In this document: piece by piece, positions 3,109-21,160 of the stretch | How the letters are laid out: each line of letters opens with the position of its first letter | Numbering within the stretch: the first letter of the stretch is position 1 | Source of the DNA: a virus | DNA length: 24,019 bases | Direction: 5' to 3' (one strand) | Virus record (IMG/VR): IMGVR_UViG_3300035698_012146 | Coordinates: 1 to 24,019 of that record | Translations under genes and position numbers: made by a program | The notes under the pieces: model-generated | The model's input: the letters and a program-made list of their open reading frames with translations, nothing else | What the model was told of the DNA's origin: nothing | The model's database searches: none

Positions 3109-3584
3109 ATCATCACCTCCCGCTTTAATATACTATAAATATGAACATCAATAAGATTTCCATTATGCCTTGCCTTGTTTCTCATCTTCCCCTCGTGAAC
3201 AAAATTCATCTTCCGAGTTAAGAAACTCTTTATCGCGTGAGCATAGTCAGCTACTTGAGTATCTATTCTCTCCAGGTCATAGGTCAAGAACGCCCAGATA
3301 AGACATTCTTTCAGTAACTCAGTCCTTGGGGAGAGTTTATGATCGAAGAAAGAGAAATGAACTTCACCAGAAAGGTGAGGAACAATCTTTCTCATTAACA
3401 TTATTCCATTCTCAATCTCTAAAATCGAAGTAGCTGGGTCGAGAAATTGCTTAACGAAGGTTTCTGGGTTCCTCGTATCATCATGAACGAAGAGAGAATC
3501 GTAGTGTCTCATCTTATCCCATAATTTCGTCAACTTTTCTAGAGAATAAGAAGCAAGAACGACGCCTTTAGGTAACTCTAACAT
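3105..3584 (-). CDS. GNAT-like acetyltransferase-fold protein, possible virion component
   Basis: A 159-residue protein. A TTG one codon upstream (3587) is in frame, but the ATG at 3584-3582 overlaps the TGA of the nozzle gene as TGATG and has GGAGG seven bases upstream, so I take the ATG. The C-terminal third (residues about 115-156) reads like the end of a RimJ/RimL-type GNAT domain: AHAIKSFLTRKMNFVHEGKM, then an NG-x4-D turn, then IYSILKRE. The usual R/QxxGxG/A acetyl-CoA pyrophosphate loop is not obvious; the equivalent stretch has only SPRTELLKE. It may therefore be a degenerate or structural GNAT fold. It sits among ejection-protein candidates, which hints at a virion role over metabolism. 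The fold assignment is moderate and the catalytic activity uncertain. Confidence 0.7.
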   Translation of the reverse strand: MLELPKGVVLASYSLEKLTKLWDKMRHYDSLFVHDDTRNPETFVKQFLDPATSILEIENGIMLMRKIVPHLSGEVHFSFFDHKLSPRTELLKECLIWAFLTYDLERIDTQVADYAHAIKSFLTRKMNFVHEGKMRNKARHNGNLIDVHIYSILKREVMI

Positions 3585-5401
3585 CAAGTCAACCTCCCTT
3601 GCGTCTCTTTCCCTCTCGCCTTTCCTTCGAAGACATATTCAGTCACTAAGTACGGTTCAACTGCCGAGTTTGAAACAAAGCGGAATCTTCCAATCCCACC
3701 CATGAACCTAAAGTTCGTCCGTCCTTCAGTCTTTCCCGCCGCTATTGTCATTGTTCCGAGAGATTTCCAATCATCTCCTCGATTGTTCGATCCTTCAACA
3801 GAAAAGATTAGAGCAGTATTTAAGCTCTCTTCAATTTTTAAAGAAACCTTTGTCCAAACTTTAGTAACGTCAGGAGAACCGAGATCATAATCCGGGGTTG
3901 TTATCTCAGCCTGAATCGCTGTACCATCATGATTCGCATCTCCAGTTTTTAAAAAATAATAAAGCGAAGTGCCGACTCCGATGTAGAAAAAGGTTTCATC
4001 GCTATTGAGTCCGGTCAGAGCTACCCAGGTTGAGAAGTTAGTAAATCCCCCAGCCCAGGTATCAGCTACGGTAAGAACTCCGGCAAGAGCGAGGTCAGTC
4101 CAGGCAGTATCCTCTATTGTCTTCGAAACAGCTAACATCGTCGCTGCTCTTGTTACCTTACTCCAAGATTTCGACTGCCAGTCGAAGGCCCAGAGTTGTT
4201 CCATCTCTATCCCGTTCTTAGGAAAGCCGATGACGATTCTGGAATTTTCATAATCAGTTATGGCAAAAATCTTATAAGGTCTTTGGCATTTCTGTATTGT
4301 CTCTTTAACTACCGGGGTACCGATCGGTTCAAGCTGGCCCCTGCCGGAGAGGAAGTAGACATTATCCTTTCCTACCCAGAAATGACCATCGAACCAACGA
4401 GTGACTGCCCGTTGTCCAACGAGGCCGATACCCCCTGTATCAAGTTGACGGAAAGAAACTGGTAAGGTCGATAAATTAGTATCTGATCCTAGCCAAATAG
4501 CATCTTCAAAATAGGCTACTAAAAAGTTACTCATTCTAAGTAACTTCCTCAATCTCCCTGATTGATAAGGCAGGTCGAGATAATCAGCAACATCAAAAGT
4601 GTCGTAGTTACCGATTCCAAGATTGCTCCATCTGATCCTACTTCGGTAAGCAGTACCCGATTCCGTGGTGTACCCTATCCAAATTCTGTCATTATAATAA
4701 CCTATTATATGAGGTTTATAAGCCAGAGTCGCTGAGTAATCTTCAAAAGTCGTTCCGTCGAAAGAGTAGATATTCCTCGTTCCGTCTGTCATCAATAATC
4801 TATTATGAGCTACAGTGTAATCAACGAAAGAATCATACACCGTGGAGAATGCTCTCCTAATCGAGTAATCAGATCCAGCACCAAAGGTCCCCGTTGCTGC
4901 GGTCTTTATCGTGATCTGTGTATTACTATCTACTGTATCAATAACCACCGACTCAGGGCCATCACCAGAACCATTAGCATCAAGAACGACAATGTCCCCT
5001 TCCTGAAGCTCTTGTCCTGTCCAGGTAGTTCCTGATCCTGTAATCGTTGTACTTGATACAGTAATCGTCCCTACAGCATAGGTCCAATAAACTCCAGTAA
5101 GTCCAGAAACTGCAAGTTTATAGCAATATTTCTGATCAACTGCTGCGGTGAACTGATCTCCATCAGTCTGCCAAACATCCTGAAGAAGAGAATAGGGAGG
5201 GTAAGTACAGGTGATTCCTGAACCGTAAGCGAATAACCCCCCTATCCTTTTCAACCCCTCTGGTTTAGAAAGAAAGCCTTCGAGATCGAGAAATCCACCG
5301 GTCGGAATCCCCTGAGGAGGAAGGTTAAGAATGATTCCTTTATTCAAAGGACGGTATGGTATCTGTTGCGTTGTCCCTGGAATAAGGGGGTAGTCACTCA
5401 T
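3584..5401 (-). CDS. tail nozzle / DNA-stabilisation protein, P22 gp10-like
   Basis: A 605-residue beta-rich protein, the likely distal nozzle or plug of a short tail that keeps packaged DNA in the head. The ATG at 5401 overlaps the end of the upstream membrane-protein gene by eight bases and has GAGGTG seven bases upstream. The N-terminus carries a 'PL..GI.LNLPP..IP.GGF..LEGFLSKPEGL+R' pattern. Many beta-propeller blades follow (NRLLMTDGTRNIYSF, NDRIWIGYT, DGHFWVGKDNVYFLSGRG, LWAFDWQSKSWSKV). The C-terminus has a typical 'WTKVSLKIEESLN...RFRFV...' module. Residues about 110-184 look like an inserted small beta domain. The pattern matches phage stabilisation proteins of the P22 gp10 type as I know them. 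This gene is the main reason to call the phage a podovirus. Confidence 0.8.
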   Translation of the reverse strand: MSDYPLIPGTTQQIPYRPLNKGIILNLPPQGIPTGGFLDLEGFLSKPEGLKRIGGLFAYGSGITCTYPPYSLLQDVWQTDGDQFTAAVDQKYCYKLAVSGLTGVYWTYAVGTITVSSTTITGSGTTWTGQELQEGDIVVLDANGSGDGPESVVIDTVDSNTQITIKTAATGTFGAGSDYSIRRAFSTVYDSFVDYTVAHNRLLMTDGTRNIYSFDGTTFEDYSATLAYKPHIIGYYNDRIWIGYTTESGTAYRSRIRWSNLGIGNYDTFDVADYLDLPYQSGRLRKLLRMSNFLVAYFEDAIWLGSDTNLSTLPVSFRQLDTGGIGLVGQRAVTRWFDGHFWVGKDNVYFLSGRGQLEPIGTPVVKETIQKCQRPYKIFAITDYENSRIVIGFPKNGIEMEQLWAFDWQSKSWSKVTRAATMLAVSKTIEDTAWTDLALAGVLTVADTWAGGFTNFSTWVALTGLNSDETFFYIGVGTSLYYFLKTGDANHDGTAIQAEITTPDYDLGSPDVTKVWTKVSLKIEESLNTALIFSVEGSNNRGDDWKSLGTMTIAAGKTEGRTNFRFMGGIGRFRFVSNSAVEPYLVTEYVFEGKARGKETQGRLT

Positions 5402-5621
5402 CGTTTTTCACCTCTTTCTTCACCTCTTTCTTCACTCCTTGTACCGCTCTCTTAGCGAGATAGGCCATGGTGATTGCTCCGGCGAAAGAAACTATCTGCA
5501 CCGTTGGTAATGTTTTCTCAGTAAAAATTTCGAGAACAAGAGAGAGAATGAGGACAATGTTCCAGAAGATAGTCAGTAACCAAGTCCTTGATTGAAGTTT
5601 CTTCTTCATCTCTACTTCCAT
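5394..5621 (-). CDS. two-helix membrane protein, holin candidate
   Basis: A 75-residue protein with two predicted membrane helices: residues about 13-33 (TWLLTIFWNIVLILSLVLEI) and about 43-60 (IVSFAGAITMAYLAKRAV). They are joined by a short polar turn (TEKTLPT), and the lysine-rich tail KKEVKKEVKNDE should face the cytoplasm. The ATG at 5621 has GGAGGGG six to seven bases upstream and overlaps the phosphoesterase gene by ten bases. The internal Met5 is less well placed. Size, topology and position three genes after the broken holin-like gene and two after the amidase fit a class II holin, which would release the amidase to the cell wall. It could instead be a membrane-anchored virion or accessory protein; no family signature proves holin function. 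Confidence 0.75.
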   Translation of the reverse strand: MEVEMKKKLQSRTWLLTIFWNIVLILSLVLEIFTEKTLPTVQIVSFAGAITMAYLAKRAVQGVKKEVKKEVKNDE

Positions 5622-6343
5622 ATTCTCCCCTCCCAGATAAAGGATTGGTCGATGATGTTAATCGGATAGAGCTGAAAGTTTCCATCATCTTTAACATAGA
5701 CCACAGCAAACCCTTGTTGCCAACCCATGGGTTGACCTTTAAGATAATCAGGTTGAACATCAGAACAGCAACCCAAGGTCCAACATTGAACCTCTTCGTT
5801 AAAATTCGGCACTACCCTAGAGAAAGTCTGAAAGCGATGCACATGACCCATAACGACATTACCAAGATAAACATCAAGATGTTTCCTAGCGGGGTAAAGT
5901 CCTGCCCAAAAGCCGTGGATAAAGTTAATCTTCCCTCTCCGGTAGGGTTGTTTGAGTTGAGGAAAATAACGAACTCCTCTCTTTTTAAAATCAAAAACTT
6001 TCGGATACTCGACAAAACCTTCCCAACGAGGGTCTGACGTAACCAACCTGTCAACTCTTTCATCATGATTCCCCTGTAATATCGTCAAATCCTTTGTCCA
6101 TCTTTGAAGAAAATCGAGATCCTTCTTCGCTAGATCAAAATCGGCAACTAACCTTCTTCCTTCGAGATGTTTTAAATTATCCCGATCGAAAGAACTAAGG
6201 TAGTTCAGATCCAACCAATCACCAAGGTCAACGGCAAAATCTGGCTTCATTGACTTAATGAATTTCTTAATCAGAGAATACGTAGGATGTTCCTCTTTCG
6301 TAGCATCAAGATGTTTATCAGCAATGATAATTCCCATTTTCAT
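5612..6343 (-). CDS. calcineurin-like metallophosphoesterase
   Basis: A 243-residue protein with the full calcineurin-like motif series: D-x-H (D9, H11), GDWLD (residues 41-45), GNHDER (91-96), FIHG (141-144, H143) and GHVHR (166-170). These residues bind two metal ions in phosphodiesterases and phosphatases of this superfamily. An ATG six codons upstream (6361) is in frame. The ATG at 6343 lies in an ATGA overlap with the amidase stop, like many junctions in this operon, and puts the first motif at the N-terminus, so I choose it. The substrate is unknown; phage members may be nucleases or nucleotide/protein phosphatases. Its place between the amidase and the two-helix membrane protein means it is expressed late, with lysis genes. 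Family certain, role unknown. Confidence 0.85.
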   Translation of the reverse strand: MKMGIIIADKHLDATKEEHPTYSLIKKFIKSMKPDFAVDLGDWLDLNYLSSFDRDNLKHLEGRRLVADFDLAKKDLDFLQRWTKDLTILQGNHDERVDRLVTSDPRWEGFVEYPKVFDFKKRGVRYFPQLKQPYRRGKINFIHGFWAGLYPARKHLDVYLGNVVMGHVHRFQTFSRVVPNFNEEVQCWTLGCCSDVQPDYLKGQPMGWQQGFAVVYVKDDGNFQLYPINIIDQSFIWEGRIWK

Positions 6344-6930
6344 TTTTCTAACATACCCCATTCTTTGTGTTCTTGATCAATCTTCCTCAAGAACCTATGC
6401 CATTCTTCTTCGTTTTTAACAAAATATTTAGGACATATTTTTTCAGTGATGTCATAATGACGAAAGATATTGTCGGTGGTTAGTTCATGTTGCTTCAACA
6501 ACGATCCTCCTAAGAACGCCCCCGCCTTAATCGTTTCGTCGGTAAACTTACCTGAAGAGTCTGGATGGCATAGTTCGATACCAATCGTACACCAATTTGG
6601 TGTAGACCTTCTTTTGTTGTAAGTATACCCATGAAATGAGTTAAAGGCAAGGAGAGTATATTCTCTAGCCCCTACGTGGTAAGCTATTTCATCATCGGGG
6701 ATGACCTGGAGAATTTCCCCATCGATGCCGATAATGTAGTGAGCTGAAGCGAAACGATCTCGCTTTCTGTCGTTCTCATCCTGATTCGCTAACATCTCGA
6801 AATAACGTCTCGTAACGTCATTTTCCTGACCCGAAGCTCCTGTATAGTGATAAACTATTCCAAGTACTTCAGTTAGCTTTTCCCCTGGTCGAGAGAAGGG
6901 GTTGATCGGAAGTAATTTCTTTACTATCAT
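6340..6930 (-). CDS. endolysin, N-acetylmuramoyl-L-alanine amidase (Amidase_2 type)
   Basis: A 196-residue single-domain amidase that would cut the bond between N-acetylmuramic acid and L-alanine in peptidoglycan. The zinc ligands expected for the T7-lysozyme/PGRP fold are visible: H28 in IVYHYTG, H158 in FRHYD and C166 in KICPKYF. The supporting motifs are ASAHYIIGIDGEILQVIPDD (residues 61-80), AYHVGA, IGIELCHPD with E119, and DIT-x-K-x-CP. There is no signal peptide and no separate cell-wall-binding domain, so it should depend on a holin for export. The ATG at 6930 has AGGGAG six to seven bases upstream, directly after the interrupted holin-like frame. The stop forms an ATGA overlap with the phosphoesterase. 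Confidence 0.9.
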   Translation of the reverse strand: MIVKKLLPINPFSRPGEKLTEVLGIVYHYTGASGQENDVTRRYFEMLANQDENDRKRDRFASAHYIIGIDGEILQVIPDDEIAYHVGAREYTLLAFNSFHGYTYNKRRSTPNWCTIGIELCHPDSSGKFTDETIKAGAFLGGSLLKQHELTTDNIFRHYDITEKICPKYFVKNEEEWHRFLRKIDQEHKEWGMLEK

Positions 6931-6931
6931 C

Positions 6932-7027
6932 TTAGCTCCCTACGGTGATATTAAAAAGGCCCTTAAAAAATAACATAATCTTATCCCAATTAGAAACGAC
7001 AGAAACGATGATACCTATTGTTCCAGC
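6932..7027 (-). pseudogene. in-frame continuation of the holin-like gene after the TAA, encoding its membrane helix
   Basis: Reading straight through the TAA at 7030-7028 gives 31 further codons, beginning AGTIGIIVSVVSNWDK and ending KGLFNITVGS, then TAA at 6934-6932. The first part is a convincing membrane helix, and the W-D-K that follows is a typical interface end. No ATG, GTG or TTG lies near its beginning, and the only ATG is within the last third, so it cannot be a separate gene. The end falls one base before the amidase ATG, the tight junction seen for real genes here. I therefore read 6932-7240 as one 102-codon gene split by one stop codon. Confidence 0.6.
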
Positions 7028-7240
7028 TTAAACAGCTCTCCTGCCTAGAATCTGTTTCCAACTGACTGAAGAAGAAGAACCCTGATGAGCATTCTGAATT
7101 AAAGAACATTCTGTCTTCGTTACCATATTGTCCTTTAATTCCTTAACCTGACGAACCACACCATCAGCACCATTTGTCCCGTAAAAACCATACCAAAGTT
7201 GATCAATAGTCTCTCCCTGGGTCTTTGGTTTTGTTGCCAT
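7028..7240 (-). CDS. truncated holin-like / membrane-anchor protein (70 aa, ends at an in-frame TAA)
   Basis: The ATG at 7240 has AAGGAG about six bases upstream. The 70-residue product has an IDQLWYGFYGTNGADGVVRQ opening and a coiled-coil stretch (KELKDNMVTKTE). This resembles small phage proteins next to lysins that end in one membrane helix, of the XhlA-like type. Here translation ends at TAA (7030-7028) just as the hydrophobic part begins (SWKQILGRRAV). The same frame continues beyond the stop for 31 codons encoding a good membrane helix, up to a second stop that sits at the ribosome-binding site of the amidase. As annotated, the product lacks its membrane anchor. It is probably a nonsense-mutated or misread holin partner. 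The family is from memory; the interruption is seen directly. Confidence 0.7.
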   Translation of the reverse strand: MATKPKTQGETIDQLWYGFYGTNGADGVVRQVKELKDNMVTKTECSLIQNAHQGSSSSVSWKQILGRRAV

Positions 7241-7264: not shown

Positions 7265-9343
7265 TTAATTTTCTGCAAAAAAGACAATTGATCCGATATC
7301 AACCCAAGTATTAACTCCTGTAGAAATGGCACAAACTCCGTTAGCATCAATTCTTATCTGCCCAAAAAGATTAACACTTGAGACTGGACAATGAAAAGCA
7401 GTACCGCTTGCACCACTTGGTCGATAGCCTACAGGTAATGTAAAACAAGTACTACCAACAGTTCCGTCTTTCATAAGTCCTTTACAATGAACATAACCCA
7501 TAGCATCTTTTCTAAACGCGCAAGTAGGGAAGCTAGAACCAAAGTTTACCCAACTATTAGCAAAAGCAGGTTCAGAAGTAGCACCAATTTCGTGCCAGTC
7601 CTCATCACTCCCTGCGGCTATTCCGCCCTGGGTAGTTGTCAGTTCTACTTTTATTCGGGGGGTTGTGCTGGCAATTGGCCCTTTCATTGTAAGCAAACCG
7701 CTGGCTTTCACGGCGACAAGAATCGTACCACCTTCAACGGTTAATTCTTGACCCACGCCCAAGTTGCCGTCTATATCTCCATCCCCTGCCACATCCAGGT
7801 CCCCAGCAGTGTGAAGGTTGACAGAAAATGTTGCTAGCAAACTATCTACTGTACATCTGATACCTCCAGCAGAAACAATATAAAACTCGTCTTCTGCTTG
7901 ATCATAAATGATACCTCCTTTATCATTATCATCTTCATCGCCGAAATGAATCCAAGAGGCCCCCGTGGTTTTGTTGGATAATATACTGATCCCACTATCT
8001 GCATTACCATCCAACACCAACATAGCCTCAGCCTTGGGCGTAGCGCCAGATTTAACACCGTCACTTCCAACTATCGTAACTCGTTCTTCAAACAATGATT
8101 TAAAATCATCACTTGACCCGTCGATATTTCCTATCCTGATCCTATCTGCCCAGGCTCCGCTAATATAACGCTGAAACACCATTTCATCAGCGTCGATATA
8201 GACTCTTTCAGAGCCATTAGCCGGGGTAGCATCTGTCGCTACTTCGATAGTGACTAATACCCAATCTGATCCATCCCAACGACGAAGTTCGTTATGATTA
8301 TCAGTATTATACCACATATCCCCCACCCCATCAGCCGTTGGTGTCGATCCAGCGTAAAAGACTTTAAGTTTTCCATCTGCTATCGTTTTCGCAGCAGCAG
8401 CAATGGCGTTCAGTAACTTCGTTCGTTCATCATAATAATCTTCCCAAACACCATCCCAAGTTGCTCTTATTATCGTTGTTGTTGTTGCCATGTTAGAAAA
8501 AACAGTAACTGTTGTATTAAGATAAAGATTGAGAGCCGCGTAAGCAGTATCAAAATCAGCATCAGAAACACTAAACAACGTAGCTTGAACTGGTATCGTC
8601 CCTGTTGTTGCAGTACCCTCAACTACAATATCATCCCAAATTGGTTTAATCGTTAACTTCTCTACCGGGGTAATTTTAGCATCATCAGCGATATCATCGA
8701 GTAATCCATTAGCTATTCCAGCATTAGTAATCCCCGTCTGAGCATTTGCTTCAGCAACCCCTGCTGCTGTTTCCTGAACTGCTATATAAAGATAAGCCTT
8801 CCCGATAGCGTTAGTAGCTGCTGCTCTCCATATAATGTCCACTTCAGCAACCCCTGTACTACCACCAGTAGTGTTCTGATAACGATAGATCGCTTCAGTA
8901 GAAGCTTCAGTAAGGGGAGTAGCGAAGTCAGTATCAATCCAAATATCACCAAAAGATATAGTATCCCCTGGTGGGGCAGGGGGTTCGTCTTGATAAAAAC
9001 CTACAATCTCCCCATCAGCAATAGCCTCGACAACACCAAGTTCAGTCGAAGTTGCTGCATCAGCGAAGTAATCCTCTACCGAGGTTGAGTCCATCTCTGT
9101 TATCGTAATCGATCCAGGGACTATTTCAGTCGCTGTTACAGCATCGGTACCGACCTTAAAGATCCATCCAGTCTTCAATCGAATCTCTGGACTCTCGTCA
9201 GTGATTGATGGATCATCAAACTCGAAAGCAGAATAGGGAAACATTCTTGCATCAACAGCTTCTTGATCCACTGACCCAGAACGAACATCAACCTTGATCC
9301 CGTCCCCTCTCGTTAACTCAAGTTCATCATTAAATATTGCCAT
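7265..9343 (-). CDS. tail fibre / host-recognition protein
   Basis: A 692-residue modular protein. The start ATG at 9343 has AAAGGG upstream. Residues 1-130 form the likely virion-attachment part. Residues about 222-315 contain a 'KITPVEKL...YAALNLYL...WDGVWEDYYDERTKLL' helical segment known from long phage tail proteins. Residues 341-362 carry the fibre motif GDMWYNTDNHNELRRWDGSD. Residues about 455-490 read HFGDEDDNDKGGIIYDQAED, a common shaft motif. The last 100 residues (W598 to end), with GYVHCKGLMKDGTVG, FTLPVGYRP and a closing IVFFAEN, are a beta-sandwich receptor-binding tip. Binding to the host surface is inferred from this architecture. It follows the C1q-like fibre gene and precedes lysis genes. 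I see no enzymatic depolymerase motif. Confidence 0.8.
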   Translation of the reverse strand: MAIFNDELELTRGDGIKVDVRSGSVDQEAVDARMFPYSAFEFDDPSITDESPEIRLKTGWIFKVGTDAVTATEIVPGSITITEMDSTSVEDYFADAATSTELGVVEAIADGEIVGFYQDEPPAPPGDTISFGDIWIDTDFATPLTEASTEAIYRYQNTTGGSTGVAEVDIIWRAAATNAIGKAYLYIAVQETAAGVAEANAQTGITNAGIANGLLDDIADDAKITPVEKLTIKPIWDDIVVEGTATTGTIPVQATLFSVSDADFDTAYAALNLYLNTTVTVFSNMATTTTIIRATWDGVWEDYYDERTKLLNAIAAAAKTIADGKLKVFYAGSTPTADGVGDMWYNTDNHNELRRWDGSDWVLVTIEVATDATPANGSERVYIDADEMVFQRYISGAWADRIRIGNIDGSSDDFKSLFEERVTIVGSDGVKSGATPKAEAMLVLDGNADSGISILSNKTTGASWIHFGDEDDNDKGGIIYDQAEDEFYIVSAGGIRCTVDSLLATFSVNLHTAGDLDVAGDGDIDGNLGVGQELTVEGGTILVAVKASGLLTMKGPIASTTPRIKVELTTTQGGIAAGSDEDWHEIGATSEPAFANSWVNFGSSFPTCAFRKDAMGYVHCKGLMKDGTVGSTCFTLPVGYRPSGASGTAFHCPVSSVNLFGQIRIDANGVCAISTGVNTWVDIGSIVFFAEN

Positions 9344-9352
9344 AAAATCCCT

Positions 9353-10150
9353 TTAAATCACCCGATGAATTGACATCTGATTATACGCCGCTTCTCCAAG
9401 AGAGTTGACAGCTCCTGCTGAATCTTGAAACAGTTTGAAGTAATAAGATTCACCCGCTGTCAGACTGACTATTCCACTGACCTGACTATCCAAAAATCGT
9501 TCATACGCAACATCAGGATAAGAATAGGTTCCTGCAATTAACTGAGTTGCCCCATACCAAAAACCAAGTACCCAACGATCTCCTGCTGTCCATGTTGTTC
9601 CTGCACTCATTACTCTACCGTCAATGTGATAATATCCTGTAGTAGCAGGGACGAAGGCCCCCGTTGCTTCATCATATTCCTTAAGAATATCATCATCTTC
9701 AACATTGAAAATCACCGTAGTCCAGGCCCCATCAGCCATCGCTTGCGCCGTTGTTTGATTAGCTAAAACCACCGTCCTAGCTCCTTCAAGAGGACCGACT
9801 GCTTTCCAATCACTACCGTCGTAGTAATAGAGAATACTATCATCAGAATCTATCCAAAGCCTTCCAGCGTCGGTAGAAGAGAGATTTGTTGAAGCATTCG
9901 GTCTTGTGGTAGGTTCAGCGTCAGCATAGTAAGCTACGGCAGATCCTTCTCGATGAGTTCCGTCAAGAAGAGGAGCGCCGTTAGTACTGTCTCCAGTGTA
10001 AGTAAAATGCTCATTCTTCAATCGTTCAAGATAAGCAGTCTTAACCTCTCTTATCTCACTCGCTCCCTGACTCGGTGAATCGCTATCTGCTGGATTTAGT
10101 ATCCAACTTCCGTCAGCAGTCGTCGCTAATAAAGACCATAATAAATTCAT
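9353..10150 (-). CDS. C1q-like tail fibre or tail appendage protein
   Basis: A 265-residue protein starting in a TAATG overlap with the adaptor gene, with AGGGAGAG just upstream. Residues about 1-65 may be the attachment part; a linker with GRLWIDSDDS and YYYDGSDWKAVG (residues 97-119) follows. From about residue 125 the pattern (AWTTVIFNVEDDD, TGYYHIDGRVMSAG, WVLGFWYGATQLIAG, SGIVSLTAGESYYFKLFQDS, NQMSIHRVI) fits the C1q/TNF-like jelly-roll that forms trimers at the end of many phage fibres. The protein probably binds the host surface or decorates the tail with the larger fibre encoded just downstream. The domain call rests on pattern recognition and is moderate. The start and frame are firm. 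Confidence 0.7.
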   Translation of the reverse strand: MNLLWSLLATTADGSWILNPADSDSPSQGASEIREVKTAYLERLKNEHFTYTGDSTNGAPLLDGTHREGSAVAYYADAEPTTRPNASTNLSSTDAGRLWIDSDDSILYYYDGSDWKAVGPLEGARTVVLANQTTAQAMADGAWTTVIFNVEDDDILKEYDEATGAFVPATTGYYHIDGRVMSAGTTWTAGDRWVLGFWYGATQLIAGTYSYPDVAYERFLDSQVSGIVSLTAGESYYFKLFQDSAGAVNSLGEAAYNQMSIHRVI

Positions 10151-11115
10151 TATTCTCTCCCTAAGTTACCGAAATCGTAATCTCGTTCATACTCTATCTC
10201 ATAAGTCGACACCGTTCGTCTCATAAAATCATCGAATCTCTGACCAACTGACCAAGCTTCTGTCGGAGCCTGTTGTCGAGAAAACCCCCAACGCATACAC
10301 CAAAGAACGATACCATAGTGAAACATCTCAGGAATCTCTGGTTCATCATCATCTTCTGAAAGAGAGGTCGGTCCTCGATAATACTCTAGCTTATACCATC
10401 TACTATCTCCCGGTGCTCGTTCGAAAACAAGTTGATTCCCATACCGTCTCCATTGCCTCGGATCTCCAGTGTCGGTATGAAGGGAGATAGAGTCAGCAGT
10501 TCGGTCCATTCGATCGAAGGTTATCTTCTGCTCCAGGTCTGATACTTTGAGAATATCGATCAGGTTCCCAGTTGATCGGTAACGATCAGTTTCTGCTGGT
10601 AATGAGATATGCTCCGTAGCCCAAGCGTGGGTTGATGGAAGGAGGAGAAAGAATGCTTTGTACATATAGAAAGTATCAGCAACAGCGGGAGCAGTACCGA
10701 AGTCAGTATGCACCGTTGCTGTCCGTGTCGTACCATCGTAGTCGACGATCTTCATCGTTTCTGACCCTATCGTGATCAACCAGCTATTATATTGATCATC
10801 ACTAGTCCCTACCGAGGTAGCTGCTGTACCGTTGAAGGTAAAGGTTGTTGGGAGAACTACGGTAGATACCGTTCCAACAGCAGCTATCGTCCCCGTAGCG
10901 TAGGTAGTCTTAAAATAAAGCTCATCCATCAAATTCCTTAACCGAAGGATTCTTCCCGATGACTTATCTTTCCAAGATGCTATCTCTCTCTGAGCTTCAT
11001 TAACTGCCCAATTCAATAACGGACCATCGCTATACTGAACATCAGTATCCGGGTCAAGATCTTGAGGCTCCCCGATCTGTTGCCATATTTCGTTTCTAAT
11101 AAACTCTAAAGTCAT
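10150..11115 (-). CDS. head-tail connector / adaptor protein (gp4-like role)
   Basis: A 321-residue protein; the ATG at 11115 is preceded by AGGAGAAAGG. The N-terminus (LEFIRNEIWQQIGEP, LLNWAVNEAQREIASWKDK, residues 4-52) and the C-terminus (PEMFHYGIVLWCMRWGFSRQ, residues 262-281, then a helix ending TYEIEYERDYDFG) form the helical frame usual for proteins that dock under the portal. Residues about 75-155 look like an inserted beta domain (TIGSETMKIVDYDGTTRTAT). The order portal, capsid, adaptor, nozzle agrees with a head-completion role. The family pattern is known to me from many podovirus and siphovirus structural operons, but the exact family is not certain. It is translationally coupled to the C1q-like fibre gene by TAATG. 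Confidence 0.65.
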   Translation of the reverse strand: MTLEFIRNEIWQQIGEPQDLDPDTDVQYSDGPLLNWAVNEAQREIASWKDKSSGRILRLRNLMDELYFKTTYATGTIAAVGTVSTVVLPTTFTFNGTAATSVGTSDDQYNSWLITIGSETMKIVDYDGTTRTATVHTDFGTAPAVADTFYMYKAFFLLLPSTHAWATEHISLPAETDRYRSTGNLIDILKVSDLEQKITFDRMDRTADSISLHTDTGDPRQWRRYGNQLVFERAPGDSRWYKLEYYRGPTSLSEDDDEPEIPEMFHYGIVLWCMRWGFSRQQAPTEAWSVGQRFDDFMRRTVSTYEIEYERDYDFGNLGRE

Positions 11116-13651: not shown

Positions 13652-14101
13652 CTACGGCCCGACTGTTTTCAAGCCCGTTAATGGGGCAAGGAGTAAAGTA
13701 CCCGTCACTAAATAGGCATAACGTGACGTAGGGTCCACGGCCAGCGGGTCATTCGACCACGCGATTGTTGATTCAGAAATCGCTCCATAAGCAGTCTCGC
13801 CTACCGCACTTACACCGATATAGTAATAGCCCCTGTACAGCGCCGATAAATCCACGGTGCTTTCTGCTACCAGTACGTTACCGAGAAATACACAATTATC
13901 ACATCCCGGCGCGAGAGCGTAGTACACGTTGTAAGATATGATATCATCGGATAGAAAAGGTTCGCCGCTTACATCCGTAGTGGGCGCGTTCCATACAATG
14001 ATCTGCGGAATCATCCCGCTGTACACGATATCAACATCTGCCGGTTGCCCACACGCCGCGAACGCCACGAAAAACATCAGTGCGATAAGTAACTTTTTCA
14101 T
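13652..14101 (-). CDS. putative lipoprotein with a fibronectin type III-like domain
   Basis: A 149-residue protein. The ATG at 14101 lies in an ATGA overlap with the 57-aa membrane-protein gene. MKKLLIALMFFVAFAAC is a signal sequence with Cys17 at a lipobox-like site; F at -3 is unusual, A at -2 and -1 is good. After this, residues about 25-117 resemble a fibronectin III domain (DIISYNVYYALAP, CVFLGNVLVAESTVDLSALY, GYYYIGVSAVGETAYGAISE). Cys67 and Cys70 could form a disulfide. If lipidated, it would act on the host envelope, for example in superinfection exclusion, or it may be a virion protein whose hydrophobic N-terminus is structural. Expression with a two-helix membrane protein favours an envelope role. 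That is inference. Confidence 0.75.
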   Translation of the reverse strand: MKKLLIALMFFVAFAACGQPADVDIVYSGMIPQIIVWNAPTTDVSGEPFLSDDIISYNVYYALAPGCDNCVFLGNVLVAESTVDLSALYRGYYYIGVSAVGETAYGAISESTIAWSNDPLAVDPTSRYAYLVTGTLLLAPLTGLKTVGP

Positions 14102-14271
14102 TTCTTAACTCCATTAATCAACGCAACGATTGCGGCGATTGTAGCAAAAGAGAGACCAACAATGCCGGAGGTATTTCCAACATCACCACCAGAAAGAGCA
14201 ATAGCCCCTGCACCAATAGCAACAGCAATTGCTCCACCGATTCCTAAAATCTTCCTCATCTTCTCTGTCAT
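14098..14271 (-). CDS. 57-aa two-helix membrane protein, second holin-like candidate
   Basis: A small gene joined by ATGA overlaps at both ends: its ATG (14271-14269) overlaps the TGA of the coiled-coil gene, and its TGA (14100-14098) overlaps the ATG of the lipoprotein gene. The product starts MTEKMRK and has two hydrophobic helices at residues about 8-27 (ILGIGGAIAVAIGAGAIAL) and 36-53 (GIVGLSFATIAAIVALI), split by SGGDVGNTS, with a short basic tail NGVKK. Small size, two helices and charged ends fit a class II holin or a small membrane anchor. It lies far from the amidase and beside a lipoprotein, so a role in membrane modification or exclusion is just as possible. The reading frame is strongly supported by the double coupling. 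Confidence 0.7.
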   Translation of the reverse strand: MTEKMRKILGIGGAIAVAIGAGAIALSGGDVGNTSGIVGLSFATIAAIVALINGVKK

Positions 14272-14483
14272 AACCCCGCCTCCCTCTCTTGTATCTTCAT
14301 CATATTATCTAATCTCTCTAAATGATGAAATCTCTTCTTCGATCGTTCGATAGGTTCTCTATTCTCTTTTTCACCTTTCTCTACTCTCTTTTCCAAGTTT
14401 TCGATTCTATCATTTAGGATCTCAAAAATAGAATCAATAGCCCCGTAGAGAATTCTCTCTCTTTTTTTTCTAAAAAAAAACAT
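14268..14483 (-). CDS. 71-aa coiled-coil protein, possibly with a longer N-terminus reached by frame slippage
   Basis: The ATG at 14483 gives MFFFRKKRER, a helix (ILYGAIDSIFEILNDRIENL), then a charged coiled coil (EKRVEKGEKENREPIERSKK) and a basic end. The stop is in an ATGA overlap with the membrane-protein gene. The start lies on a T9 run followed by A-G-A8. A better-placed Shine-Dalgarno site (AGGAAAG) belongs to a short upstream frame at 14529-14470. Loss of one T, or one slip on T9, would fuse that frame to this one to make an 86-residue protein. The site upstream of 14483 (AGAAGAAG) is weaker. Possible roles are a cytoplasmic partner of the adjacent two-helix protein or a minor virion protein. 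Function unknown. Confidence 0.6.
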   Translation of the reverse strand: MFFFRKKRERILYGAIDSIFEILNDRIENLEKRVEKGEKENREPIERSKKRFHHLERLDNMMKIQEREAGL

Positions 14484-18248: not shown

Positions 18249-19040
18249 CTATTTTAACCCCTTTCTCTTCAGTGAGAGATAATATTCTTTCTGGCTCAAC
18301 CCGATCATAGCAGCCTGTTCTGCCTCTTGTGGTGTAAGATGAACCACTTTCTTCGCTCCGGTCTGTCCTGGATTGACAGTGCTTGATTCAGTGTGACTAA
18401 TCGGTAACTCCGTTTTCGCAGGTAGAATCTCTTTCCCAGATACAGCAGCGTCTACCCTTTGCTGAATAATCTCTTGAACATGCCCTGCTATAACCCTGTC
18501 GTGAACCTTGGTATAGATCTCAGGATCTTTAAGAAGGATCATCGGAGCTATCTTTTTCACCTCTTCCTCAATTTCTCCTTGATATTGTTTGTAAGTTTCT
18601 GTCCTTTCGGGATCTCTCTCCAGGTCCTTTTTCGAATGAAAAACGTTAGTCGCCATCAGTTCTTGAGCCATCGGAGCTACTTTCTTTTTATTAAACTCCA
18701 TTAACATATTGTAAGGATTATCAACCCAGCCTTCGTTGATCCTTTCCATCAGCTCTTCCTCAGTTTCTACCTTCTCTTGACTAACCTGCTGCACCGGCTC
18801 CTGCCTCTGTTGCCCCATCTCCTTTATCGCTCCGACAAGGTCAACCTGCTGTTTTGTCAACTCTAGTGAGGTCTTCATCGACTCTAGCTGCTGAATCAAC
18901 TCCTCCTTCGTCGGACCTGTCTCTTCCTCTTTCTCTTCCTGCTTTCCGACTACAACCTCAAGATCGTTCATATATTCTTGAAAGGCTAAATCAGGAACAC
19001 CAGATTCTTCCTCTTCTTCAACTACTATATCATCTGACAT
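18249..19040 (-). CDS. capsid scaffolding protein candidate
   Basis: A 263-residue, highly charged, mostly helical protein located between portal and capsid genes, where scaffolds are encoded. The ATG at 19040 has GGAGGA six to seven bases upstream and overlaps the 85-aa gene by 11 bases. The N-terminus is acidic (MSDDIVVEEEEESGVPDL); residues about 40-75 form a coiled coil (EELIQQLESMKTSLELTKQQ); the middle is polar and Gln/Glu-rich. The C-terminal 28 residues, LTPQEAEQAAMIGLSQKEYY then LSLKRKGLK, look like the basic helix-turn-helix by which scaffolds contact capsid subunits. No protease motif. The product would fill the prohead and leave before or during packaging. This is an inference from composition and gene order. 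Confidence 0.75.
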   Translation of the reverse strand: MSDDIVVEEEEESGVPDLAFQEYMNDLEVVVGKQEEKEEETGPTKEELIQQLESMKTSLELTKQQVDLVGAIKEMGQQRQEPVQQVSQEKVETEEELMERINEGWVDNPYNMLMEFNKKKVAPMAQELMATNVFHSKKDLERDPERTETYKQYQGEIEEEVKKIAPMILLKDPEIYTKVHDRVIAGHVQEIIQQRVDAAVSGKEILPAKTELPISHTESSTVNPGQTGAKKVVHLTPQEAEQAAMIGLSQKEYYLSLKRKGLK

Positions 19041-19287
19041 CAGCTTCCTCCATTGCTTCTGTTACGATATTTTCAACGAGTCGTAGAAAACTATCGTAGG
19101 CTTTTACTTTACCTTGAGCTATGTATAACTCATTCCCCTCTTTATTCCTCAGGTCCTGCTCCGCCGGCTCCCGTATCCTGCTGAATACCTTCATCACCAC
19201 CTTCCACTCCGGGCTGGCCCGGAACTCCACTAGTGACTTCACCTCCTCCTCCCGGAGTTCCCATGTTTCTGCTGTTTTGTCGTACAT
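19030..19287 (-). CDS. 85-aa protein overprinted on the portal 3' end
   Basis: The frame overlaps the last 48 codons of the portal gene (19142-19287) and then runs 112 bases beyond it. It overlaps the scaffold start by 11 bases. Its ATG is preceded by AGGAGG at 19298-19293, five bases away, inside the portal coding sequence. The protein has the pattern LREEEVKSLVEFRASPEWKV then a helix, and GNELYIAQGKVKAYDSFLRL then VENIVTEAMEE. That is the 'SPxWk...QGkixaldsllrL' arrangement of small helical phage proteins found next to portal genes. The overlapped portal segment is low-complexity Gly/Pro-rich, as expected when one frame is constrained by another. Function unknown; a portal or head-assembly cofactor is plausible. 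Confidence 0.8.
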   Translation of the reverse strand: MYDKTAETWELREEEVKSLVEFRASPEWKVVMKVFSRIREPAEQDLRNKEGNELYIAQGKVKAYDSFLRLVENIVTEAMEEADVR

Positions 19288-21160
19288 TTCCCCCTCCTAA
19301 CTGTTGGTTCTTCATTGCATCAATCGCCTCTAACATCATTTCGATATCTTTAACATTCGGTAAGTACTTCGTTGAATCAGTCTGGCCGAAAAACTCCATC
19401 ACCTCGTCCATCATTCTAGTCGCGCCGACAAAGAACTTTGCCGCTACTTGCTTTATCTCCGGTGGTACCTGCATCTGCTGTCCGTAGATCATGGGGAGTA
19501 ACTGAAATACCTGCTGTCCGTACATGGTGTAGAGTTGGATGAGGGTGAGTAAACCCTGCCTTTTAGCCTGTTCTGTCTGCTGTACGTCCGAGGTCTGTAC
19601 TGAAAAGCGGAATCTCGATGGAATGTCTTCGATGTTCATAGAGAGTACGGTTTTTAAAATCTCTTCGTGCTCTATTCTGACCAAACCCGAAAGCTGAGGT
19701 AACAGCCTCTCCCTGTTTCGGATACATTGAAAAAGAACAATCTGCCCAGCCTCGCCGTAGCCATCGTTAACCGATTCCGCTATTGCCTGAAAGACTCTAG
19801 AACCCTGCTGGGCTAGGAACATAGTCCCCGACGCCGTTGCTCCTGACTTCATCGTCTGGTCTGCAAAGCCATTAAGTGGATCACTAGCTCCCGTAGCTCG
19901 GTCAGCGTATTCTTTTGCCATAGTCTCTGCTCGAAGGGAGCCTATCGTGATATCGGGGAACTTAATCGGAATAAAGTCCTTACTCGGGTCATCGACTTGG
20001 ATGTTCATCAAGGGGCGGAACTTCATCTTAGGAGCTAACCCCCCTCCCCTCTTTGTCACGTACATCTGGAGCATAGCTAACTGCGTTCCGTCAACTCTCA
20101 TATTATGAAGAGCATCGATCTCGTCTTGCATATGTTCCGTCATCCAACCTGTACCGATGGCATAGAGTTCGTAAGGTCTTTCAAGATAGGGTATCCTAAC
20201 TATCGGCCTAATACCCAGGTCATTAATCTCTGACCGAAGAATGGTGTTATTCGTAGGATCGAACCAGACTTTGAGATCCTCAGCCACCCCATCACCATCA
20301 GCGTCGAAGTAGACGTAGGCTTCGACAAGGGCATAAATTGCGGAATCTCTTGTTATGTCAATCCCTGATCGATTTAACGACTTTTCCAGGTTCTCATCAA
20401 TTCGATCGGTTCCTCTAGCAATCACCTTCTCTACGTTGGTAAAGATCCCTTGAGCTGCCCTTTGTTGTAGTTCGTGTTCAAAAAGATAGATCAAGTGACC
20501 TACCCATGGTGCTCTCTGTACGTCATTGACGTGGGGACGGATCAGAAAGTCTTCCATACGCATTGGGATAATAGTTGGTGAATCTCTTCTAACTTTATTA
20601 ACATCTCGAAGATCACCCCCTTCCCCTCTCGCCTTAAACATCCACCGATCGATTTCCCACGGAATTTTGATAAACTGGGTGCCCATCCTGGTGAGGTCGT
20701 AGAGAATGGTGTTGTTCATCTTTCTGAGATTGAGGTGATTAGGTGACTCAGCTAAGGCATTCAGTAATGCCGTAATCGCTTCAGCCTCGTCCTGACTTTC
20801 CATCGTTTCGTCAGTCACTGTCCAGAACGGTGTCTTTTTGGCGAAAGTCTCCTTTAGTAAAGAATAGATTCCGTTAGCGTTGGTGAGAGCGAGGGGGACT
20901 GCTACGTTACTAGCCCCTGGCCAAGGATAATCTTTCTGCTCTTGCTCTGGTCTAGCCTCGCTCTGCCTTCGCCATTTCTCCCATTTATCCACCATCGCCT
21001 GTCGTTCTTCATTCTGAATCACTGAAGATACTTCATCGCCAAGGTAGGTCATTAACTCTTTCTGACTCTCTTCGTCGAGAATCGATCCTGAAGCGATTAG
21101 TTCCTCAGAATCAGCAAACCCCTCTCCTTCAGCTACTACATTGATCATTTCGTCACTCAT
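19142..21160 (-). CDS. portal protein, P22-like superfamily
   Basis: A 672-residue protein forming the dodecameric vertex ring through which DNA is packaged and ejected. The ATG at 21160 has AAGGAG seven bases upstream, 19 bases after the large terminase stop. Diagnostic pattern: KDYPWPGASNVAVPL (residues 76-90), typical of large podovirus portals, followed by AKKTPFWTV and repeated helices. The long C-terminal part has TLIQLYTMYGQQVFQLLPMI and then a Gly/Pro/Gln-rich tail from about residue 620 (GGGGEVTSGVPGQPGVEGGD). That tail coincides with the overprinted 85-aa gene. Length is close to the P22 portal (725 residues). A P22-style helical barrel is not evident in the tail, which is too glycine-rich. 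Confidence 0.85.
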   Translation of the reverse strand: MSDEMINVVAEGEGFADSEELIASGSILDEESQKELMTYLGDEVSSVIQNEERQAMVDKWEKWRRQSEARPEQEQKDYPWPGASNVAVPLALTNANGIYSLLKETFAKKTPFWTVTDETMESQDEAEAITALLNALAESPNHLNLRKMNNTILYDLTRMGTQFIKIPWEIDRWMFKARGEGGDLRDVNKVRRDSPTIIPMRMEDFLIRPHVNDVQRAPWVGHLIYLFEHELQQRAAQGIFTNVEKVIARGTDRIDENLEKSLNRSGIDITRDSAIYALVEAYVYFDADGDGVAEDLKVWFDPTNNTILRSEINDLGIRPIVRIPYLERPYELYAIGTGWMTEHMQDEIDALHNMRVDGTQLAMLQMYVTKRGGGLAPKMKFRPLMNIQVDDPSKDFIPIKFPDITIGSLRAETMAKEYADRATGASDPLNGFADQTMKSGATASGTMFLAQQGSRVFQAIAESVNDGYGEAGQIVLFQCIRNRERLLPQLSGLVRIEHEEILKTVLSMNIEDIPSRFRFSVQTSDVQQTEQAKRQGLLTLIQLYTMYGQQVFQLLPMIYGQQMQVPPEIKQVAAKFFVGATRMMDEVMEFFGQTDSTKYLPNVKDIEMMLEAIDAMKNQQLGGGNVRQNSRNMGTPGGGGEVTSGVPGQPGVEGGDEGIQQDTGAGGAGPEE
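19293..19298 (-). promoter_or_regulatory. strong internal ribosome-binding site within the portal gene
   Basis: AGGAGG on the minus strand, five bases before the ATG at 19287. It encodes part of the portal Leu-Gly-Gly-Gly-Asn stretch, so one sequence serves as codons and as a Shine-Dalgarno site. It decides the start of the 85-aa gene. Confidence 0.75.

Follow-up and report, generated by a model that had tools for sequence, protein, structure and literature searches.

XhlA of the Bacillus prophage PBSX (PF10779) is a small protein in which a coiled-coil-like head is followed by a single membrane helix at the C-terminus; it is encoded beside an amidase endolysin (XlyA) and near a two-helix protein, the holin XhlB. 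Vesicle production in B. subtilis depends on each of xhlA, xhlB and xlyA, a result that agrees with what had earlier been reported for lysis (PMC5589764). A gene resembling xhlA in layout and setting is present in the virus examined here (IMG/VR record IMGVR_UViG_3300035698_012146, positions 1 to 24,019; this whole 24,019 nt stretch is referred to as the window), but unlike that of PBSX its frame is broken, by a single in-frame TAA. An in-frame stop inside a gene is also a feature of stop-reassigned phages; these, however, recode TAG or TGA genome-wide, and the phage reassignments described in PMC11210395 concern those two codons, whereas the window has a single TAA.

A reading frame divided by one TAA

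The frame lies on the minus strand, where its ATG is at 7240 and its first 70 codons are followed by a TAA (7030-7028). Beyond this stop there are 31 sense codons (7027-6935) and then a second TAA (6934-6932), which one base separates from the amidase ATG at 6930. On re-reading, the original prediction was found to have placed and described the split frame correctly. The features of the region are listed in Table 1. No segment of membrane type occurs in the 70-aa product, where the Kyte-Doolittle mean reaches at most 0.04 over 19 residues. The read-through frame contains a single such segment, with means of 1.61 (19 residues) and 2.05 (15 residues); it straddles the TAA, which falls at the N-terminal end of the helix. 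This helix is the weakest in the compared set (1.6 versus 1.8-3.0 over 19 residues), and the structure model of the read-through protein, with a pLDDT of 45, was too poor for use.

Table 1. Features of the split frame, the lysis cassette and its flanks (window coordinates).
Feature	Position	Strand	Basis
Probable ancestral lysis accessory reading frame, about 102 codons, soluble head then one membrane helix	6932..7240	-	Frame reading, codon score, intact homologues
70-codon open frame under standard decoding, without membrane helix	7028..7240	-	Frame reading, hydropathy
In-frame TAA, probably premature	7028..7030	-	Frame reading
Orphaned 3' part, 31 coding-like codons with hydrophobic segment and original stop	6932..7027	-	Codon score, start-codon check
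Endolysin, N-acetylmuramoyl-L-alanine amidase (Amidase_2)	6340..6930	-	Pfam PF01510, E 7.6e-22; PHROG endolysins
Metallophosphoesterase in cassette	5612..6361	-	PF00149, phrog_221
Intact protein with two hydrophobic segments, conserved in relatives	5394..5621	-	Hydropathy; weak PHROG holin matches
Tail-type protein upstream of cassette	7265..9343	-	Weak PHROG minor-tail match at C-terminus
Conserved tail-region protein downstream of cassette, synteny anchor	3584..5401	-	Present in 18 of 32 related records

A codon score, with codon usage learned from the virus's other genes in the window, gave +11.5 for the 70-codon head and +6.1 for the 31 codons after the stop. Reference windows of the latter length scored 5.7 ± 3.0 in frame and -16 ± 10 out of frame, with 0.25% of the out-of-frame windows reaching +6.1. 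The remaining two forward frames across the post-stop stretch scored -15 and -27, and a frameshift was rejected on these values. A restart of translation was likewise rejected, there being no start codon ahead of the helix (no ATG, GTG or TTG occurs after the TAA before codon 18). Coding-like sequence follows the stop of only three other genes among the 29 in the window, and in all three it belongs to the next gene, which is in the same frame and has its own start within 0-3 codons. The gap left by the TAA (97 nt) is the largest between window genes, most of which overlap or abut, the next largest being 55 nt. The codon score, the lack of an early start and the size of the gap together indicate that the 3' part belongs to the same gene, as coding sequence that is either hidden or no longer in use.

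Homologues, corresponding slots and type of protein

The read-through protein matched no family in Pfam or PHROG. Direct searches with it returned only matches with E values of at least 0.9 in phage records and no relative in plasmids and viral contigs, and a two-row alignment found none in genome contigs. A scan with the degenerate motif WYGxYGxNG led to a viral sequence (L023) encoding an 87-aa protein (3840-4103, minus strand) whose first 46 residues share 50% identity with the window protein. Its frame is uninterrupted, ends in a hydrophobic helix and has a YkuD-like enzyme (sub-threshold match) downstream. A looser motif scan added nothing beyond L023, and WYGxYGxNG did not occur among the matches listed for genome contigs. 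The window's own lineage was reached by aligning the terminases and capsids of relatives, with 49 whole records being profile-searched. This lineage includes a 32.4 kb record (G025), with a terminase 41% identical to that of the window, where a homologue (profile E 1.1e-5) has an N-terminus in common with the window protein (KPKT...LDxLWY) and is a single open frame with a strong C-terminal helix. It sits between a tail gene and an M15-like endolysin (sub-threshold match), and its flanks match those of the window: both 10150-11115 and 3584-5401 have homologues there, and the start of the latter homologue is overlapped by a gene for a protein containing hydrophobic segments.

These were the only two homologues found at the sequence level, that of L023 distant and that of G025 syntenic and from the same virus lineage. 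The original prediction had proposed such a comparison, and both frames are intact: neither ends at the site of the TAA or lacks the helix, and both extend past it, uninterrupted and in the same frame. The intact form in relatives identifies the 70-aa form as a truncation and, with the same-frame coding score, upholds the proposal that a TAA interrupts a single gene of the lysis type. At the N-terminus the proteins of this group have a conserved motif, KPKTxxExxDxLWYGxYGxNG, that seems to be specific to them.

Since no Amidase_2 was found in 49 related virus records, synteny was traced via the tail-region protein 3584-5401, and the region upstream of its homologue was read in 13 records. In four of them (G008, G042, G026 and G010), an uninterrupted protein of 75-125 aa that has a helix at the C-terminus is encoded between the tail genes and a probable lysis enzyme, and in another (G015) the protein in that slot has an N-terminal helix. 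The enzyme is an M15 peptidase in G010 (E 2.1e-14) and a probable M23 in G026; the enzyme slot of G008 and G042 holds a DUF261-related protein, a candidate for a lysis role. The similarity of a slot-mate to the window protein was not significant in the one case tested (hhalign E 0.4), and the slot-mates are therefore taken as positional analogues only. In the more distant G033, G034 and G035, similar head-plus-helix genes occur elsewhere in the tail region. Two relatives of the amidase (L002 and L003, 38-41% identity) also have a coiled-coil-plus-helix gene immediately ahead of the amidase, the slot held by the split gene in the window. The L003 protein gave a sub-threshold match to XhlA (18.7 bits, cut-off 34.7), and the L002 protein (phrog_1863) has its helix at the N-terminus, unlike the C-terminal one of the window; no sequence similarity of these two proteins to the window protein was detected. 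The best amidase matches from gut metagenomes (H9-H11 and H17) were dropped because of their cellular-type gene neighborhoods. The more useful result of this work is the comparative cassette, in which one uncultured lineage keeps a head-plus-helix slot near the endolysin, with the enzyme swapped (amidase, M15, probable M23).

Holins form lesions in the membrane on their own; for the window protein, PHROG and Pfam gave no holin match. The earlier label holin-like is not supported, as a lone helix that follows a coiled-coil-like head is typical of XhlA-type accessories. That layout is seen in the read-through frame and the intact homologues, not in the 70-aa product, and the setting, with an amidase (6340-6930) and a two-segment protein (5394-5621), is that of an XhlA-type cassette. 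The name XhlA-like single-helix lysis accessory thus appears to suit the protein better than holin. The XhlA family of Pfam was not matched by the read-through protein (E ≤ 1), the L023 homologue (E ≤ 5) or the G025 homologue (E ≤ 1), nor was there a PHROG XhlA match for any of them, so that membership of the family is not claimed and the proposed role derives from the layout. A better holin candidate than the split gene is 5394-5621, which is intact and conserved in relatives, with 39% identity to a protein in the equivalent slot of G010 that is likewise beside a metallophosphoesterase. The two hydrophobic segments of this protein also agree with the earlier statement that other membrane proteins are encoded in the window. 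The amidase has a Shine-Dalgarno-like sequence of its own (AGGGAG) and is probably still translated.

Among related viruses (window 5394-6930; L252, L276, L277 and L023), the cell-wall enzyme is swapped and the neighboring genes stay, the enzymes near the accessory gene being Amidase_2, M15, probable M23 and YkuD-like. Small genes form a second cluster in the window (13652-14483). They encode a lipoprotein-like protein of 149 aa that matches L023:2479-2649 at 30%, a protein of 57 aa containing two hydrophobic segments and a coiled-coil-like one of 71 aa, and are possibly further lysis or envelope genes.

Origin of the in-frame stop

The split is most likely due to inactivation by an ordinary mutation, or to a base error, rather than to a new regulatory trick. 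Probably, a lysis-cassette gene of about 102 codons, coding for a coiled-coil-like head and a C-terminal helix, has been cut to 70 aa by a genuine premature TAA. By analogy with XhlA of PBSX, the intact accessory would be translated just before the endolysin, would reside in the inner membrane and would assist in cell lysis by a two-helix holin and the endolysin. The truncated product would be unanchored and is probably nonfunctional. As 5394-5621 and the amidase are intact, the latter with its own ribosome-binding site, lysis would probably still occur, perhaps with less force or at the wrong time. A real allele would suggest that the anchored accessory is dispensable, at least temporarily, where a two-helix holin candidate and an amidase are retained.

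A sequencing or assembly substitution error in a gene that is intact in the virus itself is a less likely but serious alternative. The frame is undamaged and coding-like on both sides of the TAA, the homologues in L023 and G025 are intact, and the virus is represented by one record, a single consensus sequence, all of which is consistent with such an error. Against it, the other genes of the window look intact and there is no second broken frame in 24 kb, so that the assembly is not generally error-ridden and a real allele is favored. Single-base consensus errors are also uncommon in assembled short-read contigs of decent depth. We infer that the TAA is carried by the real virus.

It is doubtful that the 70-aa soluble form is functional, having lost the anchor and kept or changed a soluble role, for example as an antiholin or a regulator of the endolysin. 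The head holds the conserved motif and its codon score over 70 codons is clearly that of coding sequence, but both homologues and the slot-mates retain a helix, and the orphaned 3' part is still coding-like, which would have left little time for adaptation.

Regulated readthrough of the TAA as a timer of lysis had also been suggested; anchored protein would then be made in small amounts late in infection. This is very improbable, even though the sequence between the TAA and the original stop is open and coding-like. The homologues in L023 and G025 have no stop at that site, the window has no tRNA gene, and the phage reassignments described in PMC11210395 involve the other two stop codons. All three stops serve as ordinary terminators of the 29 window genes (13 TAA, 8 TAG and 8 TGA), and TAA is the commonest. 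We know of no precedent, in a phage with the standard code, for the timing of lysis by low-level readthrough of a single TAA. Reassignment of the stop, which the original prediction had rightly held to be unlikely, is excluded for practical purposes, as TAA ends 12 other genes and there is no tRNA gene in the window. In a reassigned phage the codon would be scarce as a terminator and would lie in frame within many genes, often alongside a suppressor tRNA.

Least probable of all is that the post-stop stretch has nothing to do with the 70-aa gene and is open by chance or is a separate tiny gene. Of the out-of-frame windows of that length, about 11% are open, but 1.5% are both open and as hydrophobic and 0.25% match its codon score, the first start codon comes no earlier than codon 18, and the homologues hold both parts within one frame.

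Other features of the window and its relatives

By its portal protein (19142-21160), the closest named relative of the virus is Caudoviricetes sp. vir526 (BK063670.1), with 39.5% identity. The listed host of vir526 is Methanomicrobiales, whereas the window encodes a peptidoglycan amidase, and members of the lineage may differ in host range or in the host assigned to them. At its end, the portal gene shares 146 bases with an 85-aa reading frame (19030-19287) in a different frame. A related contig (L005) encodes, in the equivalent place (4984-5229), a protein 33% identical to the 85-aa product, so that the two overlapping frames may be a genuine pair of genes. The capsid gene of the same contig (7383-8334) aligns as two pieces in different frames, which suggests a frameshift or a base error in L005.
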